A DNA stretch of 56,786 nucleotides from positions 1-56,786 of the forward strand of contig NZ_RCWA01000030.1 of assembly GCF_018448905.1 (NCBI RefSeq), read 5' to 3'. A program made the translations under genes and the position numbers. The notes under the pieces were generated by a model. It was not told the origin of the DNA and ran no database searches. It saw only the letters and a program-made list of their open reading frames with translations. Of this stretch, positions 10,333 to 18,665 are shown piece by piece. This DNA comes from Photorhabdus heterorhabditis. GTDB taxonomy: Bacteria > Pseudomonadota > Gammaproteobacteria > Enterobacterales > Enterobacteriaceae. Each line of letters begins with the position of its first letter. The stretch's first letter is position 1.

Positions 10333-10980
10333 ATGATCTTTAATAAAAAAGTTTTTCTGATTTCCCCTTTATTATTCGTTAGTAGTCAATTTAGTGTGGC
10401 ATGTAATATTGACCCAAGGGTGGAAAGTATAATAAAAAACTATGGATTACAAGAAACTAAATTGATGTCTATGTATAAAAAGTGCGAATTTGATGTGGTG
10501 AATACTGGAAATAGAATTATATTAACTAATAATGAATCCAGAAATAGTGATGAGCGCGCAGAACTAGCGATATATTGATATAGAGGAATGGGAATAGATG
10601 AATATAAACTATTTGATAGCAATAAGTATACAAGAGTTCCTTGTGCTAACATTCCGAATCGCTTTTTTAGAGTTTCTCCTGAATATACTTATGCGAAAAG
10701 CTATCCGATGAGAGAGGATAAAAAATTTGTTATAGAATTTAGAATGATAGAAACAGGCTGGTTGTATCATGAATTTACAACTAAACATAACTGCGAAATT
10801 AATATTGAATCAAGAGGAGAATCATATGGGCTTGGTGAAATAACTACATTTATAAAAGATGAGTCAAATTGTGAGCCTAAAGGTTATAAAATGGGGGATG
10901 AATTCAACAAGTGGTTATCAGAAAAGCCAGTTAAAATAGAGACGACAATTTCTTATGTACAATTACCAATATCGAAATAA
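10333..10980 (+). pseudogene. Exported toxin-like protein, paralogue 1, interrupted by in-frame TGA
   Basis: One reading frame of 216 codons is broken only by TGA at 10576-10578. The downstream paralogue (11274-11924) aligns along its whole length: signal peptide, K(T/L)xxMSxY, then YRGM, YxxGY/YAKSY, (V)VIEF, GWLYxxFTTKH, YGLG and a C-terminal (S/A)YV. At the TGA the paralogue has TGG (Trp in MYWYRGM against IY*YRGM here), so one G-to-A change explains the stop. The N-terminus is a signal peptide ending ...SVA before Cys24. The stop could be read through at low level, but no recoding element is evident, so decay is the simpler reading. Family is unknown; see the paralogue. Confidence 0.75.
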
Positions 10981-11273: not shown

Positions 11274-11924
11274 ATGAATTTAAATAAAAAAGCTTTCCTT
11301 ATTTCCCCGCTTTTATTAGCTATTAGTAGTGTCAGTATGGCATGTATGAAAGATCCGGAGAACATTAGAAATCAGGTGAAAGATGCAATAACGGCAAACG
11401 GATTGGCAAAAACCAAAGTAATGTCTTTATATACAAATTGTGTTCTTCGAGTTAAAGACAACACACCGAATAAATTGACACTAAAGAATGGTAAAACTGC
11501 AAATAGTGATAATGTAGAAGAAAAATCGATGTACTGGTATCGAGGAATGGAGACAAAGGAATATCAAACATTTGATAAGAATAGGAACGAGAAAATTTCT
11601 TGCGTTCAAGAAAAAAGTTTCTGTGGAATTGCGCCTCAATTCACTTACTCACAAGGTTATCTAACCAATAAAAAACCGGGTGTTGTTATTGAATTTAAGA
11701 CGGAAAAGGCAGGCTGGTTATATAATGACTTTACAACTAAACATGGATGTAAGACTAAAGCTGAAGGAGGAGGAACATATGGGCTTGGTGTAACAGGAAC
11801 ATCGGCAAGTTGTGATTCTGCATATAAGCAAAGCGGAATAGGAAATATATTTAATGGGTGGTTATCAAGTAACAAAATACAAGCTCAGGTCGCGTATGTA
11901 TTATTACAGAAAAAGAAAAAATAG
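11274..11924 (+). CDS. Exported cysteine-rich toxin-like protein, paralogue 2 (intact)
   Basis: 216-residue protein that I do not recognise with certainty. A classic signal peptide (KK, hydrophobic stretch, SVSMA cleavage near residue 23) predicts export. The mature part has six cysteines, consistent with disulfides outside the cytoplasm, and a basic KKKK tail. The pattern YRGM (residues about 86-89), then PQFTYSQGYL, VVIEFKT and a C-terminal IQAQVAYV, faintly recalls the Arg / Ser / Glu-x-Glu order of ADP-ribosyltransferase toxins. The acidic third motif is not conserved, however (IQAQ here, IETT in paralogue 1), so this is only a hypothesis. AAGGAG lies 7 bp before the ATG. It is the intact member of a tandem pair. 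Confidence 0.7.
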   Translation: MNLNKKAFLISPLLLAISSVSMACMKDPENIRNQVKDAITANGLAKTKVMSLYTNCVLRVKDNTPNKLTLKNGKTANSDNVEEKSMYWYRGMETKEYQTFDKNRNEKISCVQEKSFCGIAPQFTYSQGYLTNKKPGVVIEFKTEKAGWLYNDFTTKHGCKTKAEGGGTYGLGVTGTSASCDSAYKQSGIGNIFNGWLSSNKIQAQVAYVLLQKKKK

Positions 11925-12007: not shown

Positions 12008-12418
12008 TTAAACTGTTTTTTGTAGTTCATTGCGTGCGGCCTGAGCTAGAAAACCACTTCTGCTACCATACTCAGGATGATCATGAACAATCGTATCAAT
12101 ACGATGTAATAAACGGTGTGGCAAGGTAATATTGCTCCGTTCTGCTTTGCCATCGAATTTATCCATATTGACATCGACTAAGATCCATTGACCATCAATA
12201 TACTTACCCATGTTTTCAGCGAGATGTTCTTGCATTGTTCTGGCTTTCGGCAGCTCTGATTCATTTTGCGTTAATAATTCAAAATGTACCTCAATAGCAC
12301 TTTTAGCATCTTGCTAGGTTTCTTCCAGTGTATCGCCAGCAAAATAACAGCCGGGTACATCAGGAAACCAGCCGTTTGCACTGCTGTCTGTATCAATTTC
12401 AATAAAAGCGGGATATAC
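12008..12418 (-). pseudogene. hicB: HicB-type antitoxin remnant
   Basis: On the minus strand a HicB-like protein can be read from VYPAFIEID (12418) to ELQKTV (12010). It has the partial RNase-H-like HicB fold (NGWFPDVPGC, AGDTLEET) followed by a ribbon-helix-helix domain (ERSNITLPHRLLHRIDT, SGFLAQAARNEL). The frame is stopped by TAG at 12314-12316. The natural start is gone, because the reading frame runs directly into a copy of the dispersed palindromic repeat at 12414 with a TGA just upstream. The intact piece from the ATG at 12235 holds only the C-terminal half. The expected toxin gene hicA is absent on both sides. A dead toxin-antitoxin locus is the likely reading. Confidence 0.85.
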
Positions 12419-12528: not shown

Positions 12529-12640
12529 ACATATTTTTTCTCCTTAATTTGAATGTTTCGAGTTACTTCATTAGAGAACATTATATTTAATAAATTGGCA
12601 TAATTTTCCAATCTTATCTCTTTCTGGAGATAAAAAGAAA

Positions 12641-12680
12641 ATAAAAAGGCTGAATCCAGTGAGTACAGGATTCAGCCTTT
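12641..12680 (-). terminator. Native pta terminator (minus strand), left behind at the duplicated pta end
   Basis: A 13-bp perfect stem (12668-12680 with 12645-12657, core GGCTGAATCC) has a 10-nt loop and a run of T when read on the minus strand. It sits 35 bp beyond the stop codon of the truncated pta copy, exactly where a pta terminator belongs. Confidence 0.85.
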
Positions 12681-12704
12681 ATCAGTTACTAATCTGCTAT
12701 GGAT

Positions 12705-12834
12705 AAGAAGCGGTTACGCTTCTCCCTGTGCTGATTGAATCGCAGTCAGTGCGACAGTGTAAACAATATCGTCTACCAAAGCGCCACGGGACAAATCGTT
12801 CACTGGTTTGCGCATACCTTGCAGCATTGGCCCG
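12705..12834 (-). repeat. 130-bp direct repeat, left copy (pta 3' end)
   Basis: Identical at every base to 16515-16644. It contains the last 40 codons of pta, with the stop complement at 12714-12716, plus 9 bp beyond. At 12835 the identity ends abruptly in unrelated AT-rich DNA. Confidence 0.95.
12714..12834 (-). pseudogene. pta: Truncated pta 3' fragment
   Basis: The C-terminal 40 codons of phosphate acetyltransferase without the rest of the gene, identical to the end of the complete pta at 16524-18665. It has no start signal and is followed by the native terminator, so it is the original gene end displaced by the DNA now lying at 12835-16514. Confidence 0.9.
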
Positions 12835-13145
12835 CAAGGGCTGGTTGGAAGAAGAGTATAATTATGAAATGACTTCTTTAGAAAATTAGTAAATAAAATT
12901 TTGTATTATTTAGTGATTATTGTATATCGGTTATACTGTGTTTTTAATAAATAACAATTAATAAGCGTAAGAAGTTATAAAACATAAAAATATAACTTTG
13001 ATTTATAATTTCATTAAAGTCACAAAATATAATAATATAGAATCTTAAAGTGTGTTTTTATTCTGGTAATTACTTTAATAACTGATAATATAGTTTAAAA
13101 CACATAATTAAATTAAATTAAATTAAAATAACTAAGGGTATAAAA
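12835..13145. other. AT-rich leader region of the oxygenase gene
   Basis: About 310 bp with no open reading frame of note. The base composition is much more AT-rich than the flanking pta sequence. It contains the pentanucleotide tandem repeat listed separately and an AAGGG ribosome binding site at 13134-13138. No integrase gene or tRNA is present. Confidence 0.5.
13106..13125 (+). repeat. (AATTA)4 tandem repeat upstream of the oxygenase gene
   Basis: Four exact copies of AATTA end 20 bp before the ATG at 13146, in the likely -10/5' leader region. A change in copy number would alter promoter or leader spacing. Confidence 0.7.
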
Positions 13146-14240
13146 ATGGAATGTAATCTAGTTGTAGAAAAAAATAAAAAGATGATTTCATCGGATACTG
13201 TACAAAAAAATAAGGAAATTAACTTATTTATATTTAATGAACATCAAGCTAACCTGCTTCACTATTTTTCCGAAGATATTGCTAAACGTGGTGGTCCACA
13301 GGTTAGCGGAATTAGAATGATTGTGGTACAAGCTGGTATTGAATTAAAACAAACATTTTCAGAAATCCAACAAGAAGTGATCAGAATATATTCTGATGGT
13401 TTAATGTCCGCTCTAGTTTTTGAAGGGATGAAAAAAGTTACCAATGATATACTCCCTGATAAATTACCCTCGTTTTCTTCACTAGATAATCAATATGCTA
13501 TCCTTTATTTGGCGGCTCGTAATCAAATCTTACTGGAACTTGTTGAACATAGAGCTTTTGCATATGATATTGAAAATTATGATAAAATAGTGCGTCTGGT
13601 TGCTCATTTTAAAGAGGGAGGTTTGCAGGATATTGATTCTGAAAATAATAGAGTAGAATTAAGTTCTCATTCAGGCTTATCCCTTGGCCCTCACACCGAA
13701 GGACCATATTGGAGCGCAGTGAAAGTTAAAAATAGTCATTCTCCTTCACCGTCTTCTTTGATTTTATCATCAATGTGGAATCCTCTAATGGAACCTACAT
13801 TTGTTATTCCAATGCCTGAAGTATTAGAAAGGGTTGGTGCAACTAATGTTTTGGCTCTGTCGTCATGCAACTTTAATTTTACATATAGTGACTCTTATGC
13901 CGACGAAAAGGAAGAAGATGGTAAGGGGGTATCTATAATAGATTTTAATGAAAAATTCTCTTTCTCTATCCGATATAACTCCTACCGTTTTTCTGTTGAT
14001 GAAAAAGCCTCAGATGTTGTCAAGAAAGCATATGAAATATTTTGTCAGGCAGTTAACGATGCTATACCGTATCGATATGTATTAACACAGGAATCTGCAA
14101 TTGCTATTAATAATTATCGAGCATTACATTGTCGGGATATAGTAAAGGATAATCGTCGATTGTTAGTTCGGTTGTTTGGTCTTGCAAAATATGCGGAAGG
14201 AGTTGTTATCTCAGATGATCCTTTATTGCTTAAAGGCTAA
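13146..14240 (+). CDS. Fe(II)/2-oxoglutarate-dependent oxygenase, clavaminate synthase/VioC-like
   Basis: 364 residues. The metal-binding facial triad of the clavaminate-synthase-like group is visible: His183 and Glu185 in LGPHTEGPYW and distal His328 in NNYRALHCRD. Arg342 (RRLLVRLFG), 14 residues after that His, is in the expected 2-oxoglutarate-binding place. This HxE...H...R layout and the NYRALH block are those of VioC, AsnO, OrfP and related hydroxylases of free or carrier-bound amino acids (arginine, asparagine, lysine). A hydroxylated amino acid product is therefore likely, but the substrate cannot be read from sequence. It lies on the inserted segment with a TauE/SafE permease 286 bp downstream in the same direction. 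Cytoplasmic, no signal peptide. Confidence 0.8.
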   Translation: MECNLVVEKNKKMISSDTVQKNKEINLFIFNEHQANLLHYFSEDIAKRGGPQVSGIRMIVVQAGIELKQTFSEIQQEVIRIYSDGLMSALVFEGMKKVTNDILPDKLPSFSSLDNQYAILYLAARNQILLELVEHRAFAYDIENYDKIVRLVAHFKEGGLQDIDSENNRVELSSHSGLSLGPHTEGPYWSAVKVKNSHSPSPSSLILSSMWNPLMEPTFVIPMPEVLERVGATNVLALSSCNFNFTYSDSYADEKEEDGKGVSIIDFNEKFSFSIRYNSYRFSVDEKASDVVKKAYEIFCQAVNDAIPYRYVLTQESAIAINNYRALHCRDIVKDNRRLLVRLFGLAKYAEGVVISDDPLLLKG

Positions 14241-14526
14241 ATAATTACTCGTTGTGTTATTACAATGAAATTTAATAAAGTATAGTTATATTTAATTTTT
14301 AATTATTTGGAATGCTATATTAAATGGCACTTTTAAAGTGTTGGACTAAAGTGCTGCACTTATTATGTGAATCCAAGGGTTTTTTTGATTGGATTTTTAA
14401 GTATGTCACATTCTTTTGCAAAAAGGGTTGACTGAGTATGAAGTACAATTATGAAATTCTATTGAATAGCTTGCATTATTAATAATTTAAGCTATTTTAA
14501 AACGTTTAATAATATATGGAATCATT

Positions 14527-15309
14527 ATGGAATGGGACCTAATAGGCATACTAGCAACTATTGCTTTTTTGGCAGGTTTTTTTGATGCAATAGCAGGTGG
14601 AGGAGGATTAATAACATTGCCCGCGCTATTTCTAGCAGGAATAGAACCTATCAGTGCTATGGCAACTAATAAACTTCAAGCAACTTCGGCTAGTATATCA
14701 GCTACTGTAATTTTTGCGCGTAATGGATTGATTGAGTGGAGAAATTCAGTATTTTTAGTACTTTTTAGCCTATTAGGAGGAGTTAGTGGTGCATTATTTG
14801 TTAGTGTGGTTAGTAAGAGAGTATTAGAAGCTTGTGTGCCAATATTATTAATCGTCGTCGCAATTTATTTTATCTTCGCTCCGAAACTTAGTGGGAGAAG
14901 TAATAGGAAAAGAATATCTGTATTGTTATTTTCATTTTTAATCGCTCCGGTACTTGGTTTTTATGATGGCATATTTGGACCAGGAACGGGTTCTTTTCTC
15001 ATGATGAGTTTTATGTTCTTCTGTGGCCTTGAGATGATGCGGGCAATGAGTTTTACTAAGTTAGCAAATGCTTCATGCAATATTGGTGCATTGTTCATTT
15101 TTATCACTAAAGGCGTCATTATATGGCCGTTAGCCTTAGCAATGGCTATAGCGTCCTTTGCTGGAGCACAGTTAGGCGCACGTTATGCTGTTAAAATAGG
15201 TCCTCGTTTAATAAGGCCGATGCTGATATTGGTATGCTGTGTGTTAGCGATTAAACTTATTAGTGCTGAAAACAACCCGCTACGGATTATGATCCTTAAT
15301 CTTCTATAA
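14527..15309 (+). CDS. TauE/SafE (TSUP) family membrane transporter
   Basis: 260-residue polytopic inner-membrane protein with about eight hydrophobic segments and the family's N-terminal glycine-rich motif FFDAIAGGGGLITLPAL. The repeat of that motif is FYDGIFGPGTGSF in the second half. TSUP proteins move small organic anions or sulfur compounds, often as exporters. Its place after the oxygenase on the inserted cassette suggests export of the oxygenase product or uptake of its substrate; that is inference only. Codon use is AT-rich, like the oxygenase gene. An ATG with weak upstream GGAAT is used. Confidence 0.85.
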   Translation: MEWDLIGILATIAFLAGFFDAIAGGGGLITLPALFLAGIEPISAMATNKLQATSASISATVIFARNGLIEWRNSVFLVLFSLLGGVSGALFVSVVSKRVLEACVPILLIVVAIYFIFAPKLSGRSNRKRISVLLFSFLIAPVLGFYDGIFGPGTGSFLMMSFMFFCGLEMMRAMSFTKLANASCNIGALFIFITKGVIIWPLALAMAIASFAGAQLGARYAVKIGPRLIRPMLILVCCVLAIKLISAENNPLRIMILNLL

Positions 15310-15369
15310 ATTGTACTGAATTAAAATAAATCACTAAGCGGACTGAATTATGCCCAATTTCATTAATTA

Positions 15370-16346
15370 ACCTCAGCTTCGTTTAAAAATAGCGATATCA
15401 CAATCCCGTAAATTCAAGCTCGGTTTTTTAGGTTGGAATGTATAAGCAATTAGGCCAGCGACGATTTCCAATAAAAAACCGAGCTGACTGCGGTGTCTTG
15501 AATGCTCTATCTGAGAAATATTTTTAAGCTGAACCACGACCGTTTCTATCAAAAATCGCCTTCTTAACATCAGCTTATCCCAGAGAGATAATTCTTTTGC
15601 CTTCATGTTATTACGGACATGAGTGATTAACGTTATTCCTTCTGCTTCTAGTTCATCGCACAAAGCCTGCGACAAATACCCTTTATCACCATATAAACAT
15701 CCGGTTAACCCTTGTACCAGCGCTTTGACGGGATGGCGATCATCCTTATTTCCTGAAGTCAACTTCACTGCCAGAAGTTCACCACAATCATTGATAACCC
15801 GATGAAGTTTAAAGCCATAAAACCAGCCGGTACTGGTTTTCCCTCGCTGTGCGATGCCCTGAAATACGCGATGACGGGGAATACGGAGATTGTGGCAAAC
15901 GGCAATTTTGGTTGAATCAATAAAAGTGATCCCCTGGGTTTCAGCCTTGCGTGACGAAAGAAAAGCACAAAGAGGAATGAGCGCCCTTTGCTTCAAGGTT
16001 AACATCCGGGTGTAGCTGACCAACTGGGGAAAATCGGCCTGAAGATAGTGTTTAACCTGCTGAATATAAAACGTTTTAAAATCACGATAATGGCTCATGT
16101 GGAATAGAATGAGTATCGTCATGACTTCACTGAGAGAAAGGGAAGCTTCGCGGCGACGTTTGAGCAAACCATGTTCAATTAACTGTTGATGCCAGAGAGG
16201 AATAAATTTTTGGCAAAAGTCATCGACGCAGCAGTAAAGTTCTTCTAAATTAAACATGCCTGAGGATCTCCACGATTTTGTTTTCTTTGACAAAAACTTT
16301 GATCGTGCCTCAGGCACTTAGTTCCCTTCTTAAGCAAACCTCAGGT
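15370..16346 (-). mobile_element. IS982-family insertion sequence
   Basis: A complete element of about 977 bp with one transposase gene. The ends form imperfect inverted repeats: ACCTCAGCTTCG...TTAA at 15370 and ACCTGAGGTTTGCTTAA read from 16346 on the other strand. Flanks TTAATTA (15363-15369) and TAAATTA (16347-16353) could be a degenerate target duplication. The right end lies 11 bp from a truncated MITE/repeat fragment. Confidence 0.85.
15373..16257 (-). CDS. IS982-family transposase
   Basis: DDE transposase of about 294 residues. Family blocks are clear: CCVDDFCQKF near the start, RREASLSLSEVMTI, HYRDFKTFY, the first Asp in ITFIDSTKIAVCH, GNKDDRHPV, the second Asp in LYGDKGY, the Glu in RRRFLIETV, and QIEHSRHRS with LIAYTF at the end. 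I took the ATG at 16257 because it has GGAG 10 nt upstream and matches the usual N-terminus MFNLEELY. A GTG at 16317 would add 20 residues. The gene is uninterrupted, so the element may still be active. Confidence 0.88.
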   Translation of the reverse strand: MFNLEELYCCVDDFCQKFIPLWHQQLIEHGLLKRRREASLSLSEVMTILILFHMSHYRDFKTFYIQQVKHYLQADFPQLVSYTRMLTLKQRALIPLCAFLSSRKAETQGITFIDSTKIAVCHNLRIPRHRVFQGIAQRGKTSTGWFYGFKLHRVINDCGELLAVKLTSGNKDDRHPVKALVQGLTGCLYGDKGYLSQALCDELEAEGITLITHVRNNMKAKELSLWDKLMLRRRFLIETVVVQLKNISQIEHSRHRSQLGFLLEIVAGLIAYTFQPKKPSLNLRDCDIAIFKRS

Positions 16347-16357
16347 TAAATTAAATA

Positions 16358-16436
16358 CAAAGTGGAATCCCGCCCTGGTGACCGGGGTGAGTGAGTGCAG
16401 CCAACAAAGAGGTAACTTGAAAAGATAACGGGTATA
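16358..16436 (-). repeat. Dispersed repeat, half copy B joined to a MITE end
   Basis: 16378-16436 is one half of the palindromic repeat, ending AGATAACGGGTATA. 16358-16377 is the 20-bp end of the CAGGGCGGGAT element described at 52444. The same junction GGTCAC/CAGGGCGGGATT occurs at 52443/52444, so the two loci share a composite structure. Confidence 0.7.
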
Positions 16437-16457
16437 TAACGCAGAAGAATAAATTCA

Positions 16458-16490
16458 AAGGTCTGAATCTTATTAAAGAGGTCAGACCTT
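16458..16490 (-). terminator. Substitute terminator for the rebuilt pta gene
   Basis: A 9-bp perfect stem AAGGTCTGA (16458-16466) pairs with 16482-16490 and is followed on the minus strand by a T-rich tail. It lies 34 bp past the pta stop codon, in DNA unrelated to the native pta downstream region. Confidence 0.6.
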
Positions 16491-16514
16491 GATTAATTTA
16501 ATTGGGGCAAGTGC

Positions 16515-16644
16515 AAGAAGCGGTTACGCTTCTCCCTGTGCTGATTGAATCGCAGTCAGTGCGACAGTGTAAACAATATCGTCTACCAAAGCGCCACGGG
16601 ACAAATCGTTCACTGGTTTGCGCATACCTTGCAGCATTGGCCCG
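16515..16644 (-). repeat. 130-bp direct repeat, right copy (pta 3' end)
   Basis: Identical to 12705-12834. This copy is continuous with the complete pta gene; identity stops at 16645, where only the full gene continues. Confidence 0.95.
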
Positions 16645-18665
16645 ATTGAAACCAGATCCGCAGAACGTTGTACTGCTTTGTAGGTGGTGTTACCGGTATT
16701 CAGATCAGGGAAGATGAACACGGTAGCTTGACCGGCAACCGGTGAGTTGGGTGCTTTGGATTTCGCCACATCTGCCATGATTGCGGCGTCATATTGCAAT
16801 GGGCCGTCAATGATCAGATCTGGACGTTTTTCCTGCGCTAAACGAGTTGCTTCACGAACTTTTTCAACATCACTACCTGCACCAGAGTTACCGGTAGAGT
16901 AGGAGATCATGGCAACACGTGGCTCGATACCAAATGCTTTAGCTGAATCTGCCGATTGAATGGCGATTTCAGACAGTTGTTCAGCCGTCGGATCTGGGTT
17001 GATCGCACAGTCACCGTAAACCAGAACTTGTTCTGGTAGCAGCATAAAGAATACGGATGATACCAATGAGCTACCCGGTGCAGTTTTGATTAACTGCAAT
17101 GGTGGGCGGATGGTGTTTGCTGTGGTGTGTACTGCACCGGAAACCAAACCGTCAACTTCGCTCTGTTCCAGCATCAGTGTACCCAGAACAACGTTATCTT
17201 CCAGTTGTTCACGTGCAACGACTTCAGTCATACCTTTGTTTTTGCGCAGTTCAACCAGACGCGGAACATAACGCTCACGTACGGCAACCGGATCAACAAT
17301 TTCGATACCGGTACCCAATTCTACTCCTTGAGCAGCAGCAACACGACGGATCTCTTCGGGATCGCCCAGCAGAATACATTGTGCAATACCACGGTCAGCA
17401 CAGATAGAAGCTGCTTTCACGGTACGAGGTTCATCACCTTCCGGTAGCACAATCCGCTTGCCTGCTTTGCGTGCCAGTTCTGTTAATTGATAACGGAATG
17501 CTGGTGGAGACAGACGGTGTGGGCGTTCAGAATTCGCTGTCAGGGAATCGATCCACTCTTTATTGATATGTTGGGCAACATAGTTTTGCAGCTTTTCGAT
17601 ACGTTCATGGTCATCTGCGGGCACTTCAAGGCTGAAACTTTGCAGGCTCAGGGAAGTTTGCCAAGTGTTGGTGTCAACCATAAAGACTGGCAGGCCCGTT
17701 CCGAAAGCGCGTTCACACAATTGTTTAATGGGTTCATCGATGGCATAACCTCCGGTCAACAGAATTGCACCGATTTCAATACCATTCATGGCAGCCAGAC
17801 AGGCTGAAACCAGAACATCTGGGCGATCAGCAGAAGTGACCAGCAGGGAACCCGGACGGAAATGTTCCAACATATGTGGAATGCTACGTGCACAGAAAGT
17901 CACGGATTTCACCCGACGGGTTTTGATCGCACCTTCATTGATAATACGGGCGTTCAGGTGTTTTGCCATATCAATTGCGCGTGTTGCAATCAGGTCAAAA
18001 CTCCATGGAATGCAGCCGAGAATTGGTAGCGGACTATTTTTGAATAATGTATTTGGATCGATGTTAGCAACTATTGCTTTAGAGGATTCATCGAAAATTT
18101 CTGACAGGTCAGGTCGGGTACGGCCTTGATCGTCAACTGGCGCATTCAGTTTGTTAATAATAACACCGGTGATGTTCTGGTTTTTGCTGCCACCAAATTC
18201 AGCACGAGCCAGTTCAACACGTTCTTTTAACAGTTCCTGGGAATCATTACCCAGCGCCAGTACGAACACAATTTCAGCGTTCAGGGTTTTGGCGATTTCA
18301 TAGTTCAGAGACTGAGCGAACGGATGTTTACGAGTTGGAACCAGACCTTCAATCAGGATAACTTCTGCGTCTTTGGTGTTTTCGTGGTAAAGGGCCACGA
18401 TCTTTTCCATCAGTACATCTTTCTGATTCGTCGTCAGTAAGGATTCCACATAGGCCATATCCAGCGGTTCAGCGGTTTTAATGCTGGAATGAGAGCGGAT
18501 GATTGTGGTGGTCTGGTCTTGTGAGCCACCGCAACGAGCTTGGGCTATGGGTTTGAAAACACTCAGGCTGACGCCTTTTTGCTCCATTGAGCGGATCACA
18601 CCTAAACTAACACTGGTCAAGCCGACGCTGGTGCTGGTAGGGATCAACATAATTGTACGGGACAC
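16524..18665 (-). CDS. pta: Phosphate acetyltransferase Pta
   Basis: Interconverts acetyl-CoA and acetyl phosphate; with AckA it forms the acetate overflow and ATP-generating route, and acetyl phosphate also acts as a signal. 713 residues, the long enterobacterial form. The N-terminal part is CobQ/BioD-like ([21 protein letters not shown]), a DRTGG domain is in the middle, and the C-terminal phosphotransacetylase domain has [39 protein letters not shown] and FPDLNTGN. It lies 69 bp after ackA on the same strand. Its last 120 bp are duplicated 3.8 kb away (12714-12834), yet the reading frame here is full length. Confidence 0.96.

Follow-up and report, generated by a model that had tools for sequence, protein, structure and literature searches.

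A foreign cassette beside pta in Photorhabdus heterorhabditis, probably captured by homologous recombination anchored in the end of the gene

We analyzed a 56,786-nucleotide stretch of the genome of Photorhabdus heterorhabditis, an insect-associated bacterium (the window), in which a block of foreign genes at 12835-16514 lies between two copies of the 3' end of pta, the gene encoding phosphate acetyltransferase. The evidence assembled below indicates that the slot beside pta was probably refilled by homologous recombination anchored in the pta 3' end, in an event that captured the foreign block. This evidence consists of two terminator haplotypes, gene-end copies that in three of four genomes are nearly identical in a species-specific manner, a cassette that has moved horizontally, an older pta fragment, and a loss of species signal towards the anchor.

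The two copies (12705-12834 and 16515-16644, both on the minus strand) proved 100% identical over 130 base pairs (bp) when compared base by base, as a preliminary description of this DNA had stated, and each comprises the pta stop codon, 39 sense codons, and 9 bp past the stop. The right copy belongs to the intact gene (16524-18665, minus strand; 713 codons plus stop; Pfam PTA_PTB, E 2.3e-128), and the left is a fragment without the remaining gene, cut at base 130 of the pta end. At the repeat-search setting used, they form the sole direct repeat longer than 100 bp in the 56.8-kb window, and a search of the assembly (5.05 Mb in 226 contigs; E <= 0.001) returned only these two copies. Behind the two ends lie different hairpins: terminator T1 (12632-12704, minus strand; -22.5 kcal/mol, z -5.3) flanks the left copy on its left, and T2 (16441-16514, minus strand; -16.2 kcal/mol, z -4.2) stands behind the right copy. 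The same sequence as T1 is found behind pta at the empty sites of 5 of 13 Photorhabdus genomes, in agreement with the earlier proposal that it is the native pta terminator, and T2 is present in 6 of 13. T1 is the pta terminator of the empty sites, now stranded past the left copy; T2 came with the cassette and now lies beside pta. Had the region been duplicated in tandem, both copies would be followed by one and the same terminator; the structure thus joins two haplotypes, one composed of the hicB side, T1, and a pta end, and the other of an oxygenase gene, a transporter gene, T2, and pta. The duplication is unlikely to be an artefact of assembly, a possibility raised in the preliminary description, since three other species show the same layout in separate assemblies, in one case inside a 1.5-Mb contig.

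To place this structure, features of the window were mapped in one genome per species for 13 Photorhabdus species, including that of the window (G000), using approximately 17-20 kb around pta in the 12 other genomes and the first 23 kb of the window. The cassette together with a duplicated pta end occurs in four of these: the window, Photorhabdus sp. CRCIA-P01 (G001), P. asymbiotica DSM 15149 (G002), and P. bodei LJ24-63 (G005). Five genomes (G003, G004, G006, G007, G009) present a clean empty site with T1, two (G008, G010) have T2, just one pta end, and the final ~120 bp of the transporter gene, one (G011) has a third terminator, an interrupted transporter gene, and one pta end, and the last (G012) has a third terminator without the cassette. 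Content is variable between conserved neighbors across the 13 mapped genomes, the left neighbor of G012 lying outside the fetched stretch, and likewise among the 8 genomes whose slot contents were listed. By our reading of the sequences, the conserved left neighbor is probably an operon for amino-acid catabolism, with arginine ast-type genes and a permease. The presence of both empty sites and other cargo among relatives lends support to the earlier view that the block arrived from outside and that pta was kept intact, the direct repeat restoring the gene. In Xenorhabdus, each of 30 genomes carries one pta 3' end, with several different terminators beside pta; 29 gave a single match, and a further 25-base match in one genome (G344) was taken as chance. 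The cassette genes, hicB, and the protein encoded at 11274-11924 had no match near Xenorhabdus pta within the scanned distance of at most about 1.5 kb past the gene.

Comparison of the cassette with pta and ackA at fourfold sites, using the transporter gene only for pairs that include P. bodei, indicates that the cassette has moved horizontally, because between the window and P. asymbiotica it differs far less than pta and ackA do (8/262 sites, or 3%, vs 140/558, or 25%; Fisher p 2e-17). For this pair, divergence steps up at both edges of the cassette. The cassette was likewise the more similar between the window and G001 (44/242 vs 153/555, p 0.006), G001 and G002 (48/243 vs 175/551, p 0.0004), the window and G005 (12/112 vs 166/553, p 1e-5), and G002 and G005 (14/112 vs 169/550, p 4e-5).

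The duplicated ends themselves tell a different story from the cassette they enclose. Over 128 bases, left and right copies within a genome differ at 0 positions in the window, 0 in G001, 1 in G002, and 11 in G005, and the right copies of the four genomes differ mutually by 4-11. The G002 left copy has one edge base in common with the G005 left copy and elsewhere matches its own right copy, and the G005 left copy shows six amino-acid changes, while 12 of the 13 live copies share one protein sequence. With a left joint shared by three of the genomes, the simplest account would be that the live gene has converted the left copy.

Left copies end at base 128-130 or 143 of the pta end, depending on the genome. 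In the window, G002, and G005, the inner left edge is the same joint, at which the pta fragment meets the inside of a truncated repeat resembling a miniature inverted-repeat transposable element (MITE); only the right part of this repeat is left in the window (12835-12881, plus strand), where it abuts the pta fragment with its left half missing. The left junction of G001 differs and consists of 143 bp of pta without a repeat piece. The MITE-like repeat, ~170 bp long (for instance at L019, 1501-1560), has what we read as imperfect terminal inverted repeats, and similar sequences were located at 28 places in 5 of the 13 genomes, 10 of which we read in context. The insert has copies of the gene end on both sides and, at one of its inner edges, a new joint, and no recipient DNA was found to be deleted beside it, T1 and the hicB side matching the empty sites (for example, G002 compared with G003). 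A further fragment in G001, comprising pta bases 233-348 joined directly to a piece of hicB, lies ~6.7 kb left of its left copy; after it comes a hemagglutinin-like/TPS block that includes a YezG-like immunity gene. We read this extra fragment as an earlier round of the same process.

For scans of recombination signal along pta, the gene was numbered from its 3' side, and the signal was compared solely with the rest of pta and with ackA. Among Photorhabdus, the correlation between species distances in pta and in ackA was 0.78-0.85 for five blocks covering bases 401-2220, 0.45 for bases 131-400, and 0.28 for bases 1-130; in 400-bp windows, the pta 3' end gave 0.53 against a minimum of 0.77 among 70 windows. 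Across the 30 Xenorhabdus genomes, successive 200-bp blocks from the 3' end correlated with pta 1201-2100 at 0.34, 0.55, 0.62, 0.66, 0.74, and 0.71, a design that also holds a plain distance effect. In a maximum chi-square breakpoint scan of pta, p was below 0.01 for 12 of 78 pairs, and for four of these none of 1000 permutations matched the observed value; the breaks include base 81 (G006-G011) and base 360 (G000-G001). When sister species were compared along pta, their divergence showed no clean crossover point. The species signal fades at the pta 3' end, and this flanking gene accordingly bears an excess of recombination signal relative to the rest of pta and ackA.

We propose that the slot between the catabolism operon and pta is refilled by ordinary homologous recombination, and not by a dedicated integrase. 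A foreign fragment carrying the oxygenase gene, the transporter gene, T2, and a pta 3' end would recombine with the resident pta, and its far end would be joined without homology, either by circularization and a single crossover or by homology-facilitated illegitimate recombination. This would leave pta intact behind a new terminator, with the old end and T1 pushed left as a fragment that would later be truncated and that gene conversion would keep homogenized with the live copy. If the two copies recombined with each other, the cassette could be deleted without a scar. Within this scheme we infer the involvement of RecA, the route of transfer, the conversion, and the manner of end joining. 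We lean toward the circle, itself a reading of the structure, because no deletion in the recipient is seen and microhomology is unclear; homology-facilitated illegitimate recombination generally deletes recipient DNA and mostly uses 3-10 bp of microhomology, as summarized in an Escherichia coli study (PMC3240628). Among the alternatives offered in the preliminary description, homologous recombination with an incoming fragment is the one that fits best.

Several results weigh against this proposal. The value for the terminal 130 bp (0.28) is weak alone, other pta windows reaching 0.29 (minimum of 84), and Photorhabdus was noisy in the design that uses pta 1201-2100 (0.42, 0.50, 0.52, 0.81, 0.55, and 0.76). 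Other chi-square breaks fall deep inside pta, in a scan that covered pta only. The left junctions show no clear microhomology, a debatable TTGG being the most that can be pointed to. The cassettes of the window and G002 are alike, but both of their pta copies differ, so that the model needs gene conversion to have followed transfer; tree tests of left against right copies, made on 128 bp only, had no power on this point (p-AU 0.37 and 0.27). Between G001 and G005, the cassette differs no less than pta and ackA (22/110 vs 84/563, p 0.2). The preliminary description had held that relatives with the same genes and only one pta end would count against its account of the duplication; this is partly the case, for in three relatives (G008, G010, G011) a single pta end adjoins the transporter gene or its final ~120 bp. 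The left copy can therefore be missing, and duplication is not obligatory.

The explanation first suggested for this locus invoked the logic of an attachment site. As a rival reading, the cassette would be a site-specific integrative element, an island or satellite, that uses the pta 3' end and whose integrase has been lost or borrowed. In its favor, the repeat does restore the gene end, 5 of 13 genomes have clean empty sites, the cassette passed from species to species while its flanks did not, and the pta-side regions of P. luminescens and X. nematophila carry the label GI in one survey, the other two being labeled RGP (PMC3091717). Tyrosine integrases that could act in trans are also available: Pfam PF00589, searched in six whole genomes (G000, G001, G002, G005, G011, G012), gave 17-30 matches in every one. 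However, none of these matches lies on the pta contig of G000 (57 kb), G001 (42 kb), G005 (321 kb), or G011 (64 kb), and in the other two genomes the match closest to pta is separated from it by more than 280 kb (G002) or more than 450 kb (G012), in a search that covered tyrosine integrases and not serine recombinases. No integrase was present among ten slot proteins from five relatives or nine more, seven of them from G012, or in the cassette, whose three full-length genes encode a TauD-like protein, a TauE-type transporter, and an IS982 transposase. Nor do the ends share a constant attachment core, the duplicated length and inner left edge varying among genomes (128-130 or 143 bp) and the other G001 fragment spanning 233-348. 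Relatives of the oxygenase were, moreover, absent from plasmids, viral contigs, and phages, one of these searches consisting of six short peptide patterns of a single protein. On this evidence an integrative element is quite improbable.

Only slightly different weight attaches to an old, genus-wide arrangement of cassette, T2, and duplicated end that some species lost through repeat recombination or deletion. Such loss would account for T2 and the transporter remnants in G008 and G010 and for the transporter gene in G011, and recombination between the repeats would yield exactly the T1-pta sites observed; it is nonetheless an unlikely history given that the cassette is more alike than pta and ackA at fourfold sites in 5/6 pairs (p 0.006 to 2e-17; the sixth 0.2) and that the G001 left junction is unlike the other three. 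Simple tandem duplication of a region spanning the pta end, which the preliminary description had listed, would be expected to leave a direct repeat of the gene end as its trace. It is rejected as extremely improbable because different terminators stand behind the two ends, and the gene pair in the cassette has a relative in another genus at another place. In a bolder version of recombination at pta, a mobile cassette lacking an integrase would use the homology of the pta 3' end as a docking site common to many strains: recombination between the cassette's two pta ends would release a circle with one pta end, which would cross over by homology at pta in other strains, after which gene conversion would turn both ends into host sequence, with successive dockings building up the slot. 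We regard this version as possible, though on balance doubtful; if true, it would make the cassette look precisely inserted in every host.

The first gene of the cassette encodes a 364-amino-acid (aa) protein (13146-14240, plus strand), which we tentatively assign as a TauD-like Fe(II)/2-oxoglutarate oxygenase. Its best Pfam match is TauD, below the curated cut-off (E 0.01; 16.2 bits vs a cut-off of 27), and TauD is also the best match of its homologue in G159, a genome of another genus (E 0.015); a match to NCBIfam TMLD lies far under the cut-off (E 0.018). An HTE...H...R motif may be present by our own reading. An AlphaFold model built from three sequences was unusable (pLDDT 33), and a search of solved structures gave 0 matches. 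Searched for more widely, the oxygenase was matched in 3 of 295 family genomes (the window's own, G159, and a weak one in G060) and in 1 of 369 class genomes, the window's own. Two distant, weak protein matches were seen in its own genome (E 2.5e-4) and in G060 (E 7e-4). The adjacent gene encodes a 260-aa TauE/SafE-type transporter (14527-15309, plus strand; Pfam TauE, E 6.6e-50). In G159 the two genes are adjacent too, at another place (oxygenase 46% identity) and next to a gene that reads as vgrG, and the pair therefore seems to move as a unit. The G005 oxygenase gene has a frameshift near its start. A phage or plasmid origin of this cargo was considered and set aside, there being no match in plasmids, viral contigs, or phages in the searches described above, including the one with six peptide patterns.

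Beyond the transporter gene is an insertion sequence (IS) whose transposase belongs to the IS982 family (15373-16317, minus strand; NCBIfam IS982, E 1e-77). It occupies this place in the window only and is absent there from the other three cassette genomes; it is a later arrival and was rejected as the mover of the cassette. A composite transposon or other IS-driven insertion was discarded as well, since this single copy is not one of a bounding pair. A dispersed short repeat (16378-16440), with many matches in its own genome and in relatives, separates it from T2.

Other material occupies the slot in related genomes. In G005 we observed a three-gene block (L036:3978-6865) comprising a weak LPD16 match, a class V aminotransferase, and a methyltransferase; similar open reading frames (ORFs) are found in the slots of G006, G007, and G008 and are not in the window. 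The G010 slot (L041:4515-5845) contains a RES-domain gene beside a gene with a weak helix-turn-helix match, possibly a toxin-antitoxin pair, adjoining the transporter remnant. A few kb from the pta end of G012 (L043:6751-12406) are type IV pilus-type genes (PilO, T2SSE, T2SSF), perhaps part of a larger island. Several slot ORFs look like transposases of other IS types when read by eye.

On the far side of T1, the window encodes a HicB-like antitoxin gene (12008-12235) with a short frame, 75 aa compared with 137 aa in G001 and G006; we noticed no adjacent hicA, in a reading that included no search aimed at hicA. The gene at 11274-11924 has an interrupted relative at 10333-10980, split into two open frames (81 and 130 aa). 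Proteins of this kind, ~215 aa long, start like secreted proteins, and 12 of 13 species have DNA relatives in the stretch on the side of pta, in many cases as a run of several, with none found in G011. No Pfam family matched the 11274-11924 product; a YWYRG motif in these proteins presumably hints at an ADP-ribosyltransferase-like fold.

Much of what we describe has precedent. Among protein genes that flank plasticity regions in both genera, pta has been listed for GI63 of X. nematophila, RGP53 of X. bovienii, GI73 of P. luminescens, and RGP37 of P. asymbiotica (PMC3091717, Table 3); the locus is the same, and the duplicated pta end, terminator exchange, and conversion are absent from the part of that source describing it. 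Among the titles and abstracts listed from one open library, none told of pta ends being duplicated. Hotspots that lack an integrase and show recombination at the core genes flanking them were described in 2017 (PMC5635113), and the present locus resembles those, as outlined there, in its variable content beside a core gene, the lack of a nearby integrase, and excess recombination in the flanking core gene; unlike them, it has kept a duplicated piece of the core gene itself, which lies beyond the newest block. In E. coli, 14 sequenced clones carried duplications of the lacZ end, 109-950 bp long, after circularized fragments had been integrated by single crossovers, which were reported to be recA dependent (PMC3240628). 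That is a laboratory plasmid system, whereas here the DNA is natural. Stepwise addition of blocks has been modeled through homology-facilitated illegitimate recombination for effector arrays of the Vibrio cholerae type VI secretion system (PMC5361080); successive blocks at one conserved anchor and old gene parts pushed away are common to both cases, although the anchor there lies in an effector cluster and here is a metabolic housekeeping gene. In one comparison of bacterial species, 10-18% of variable segments were flanked by repeats (PMC2884548).

Plasticity at pta, recombination hotspots at core genes, and duplications of gene ends are thus already known, and the case is real and well explained, a clear natural example of a largely known process. 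When an insert is bracketed by a perfect repeat of a gene end, this alone does not argue for an attachment site, because conversion can perfect the repeat later. What the locus offers is a readable natural record of gene swapping beside a core gene without an integrase, in which two terminator haplotypes, a leftover gene end, its likely conversion, and a species signal fading toward the anchor are preserved together. If the circle model is true, cassettes of this kind would be portable and would need only the recombination machinery of the host.

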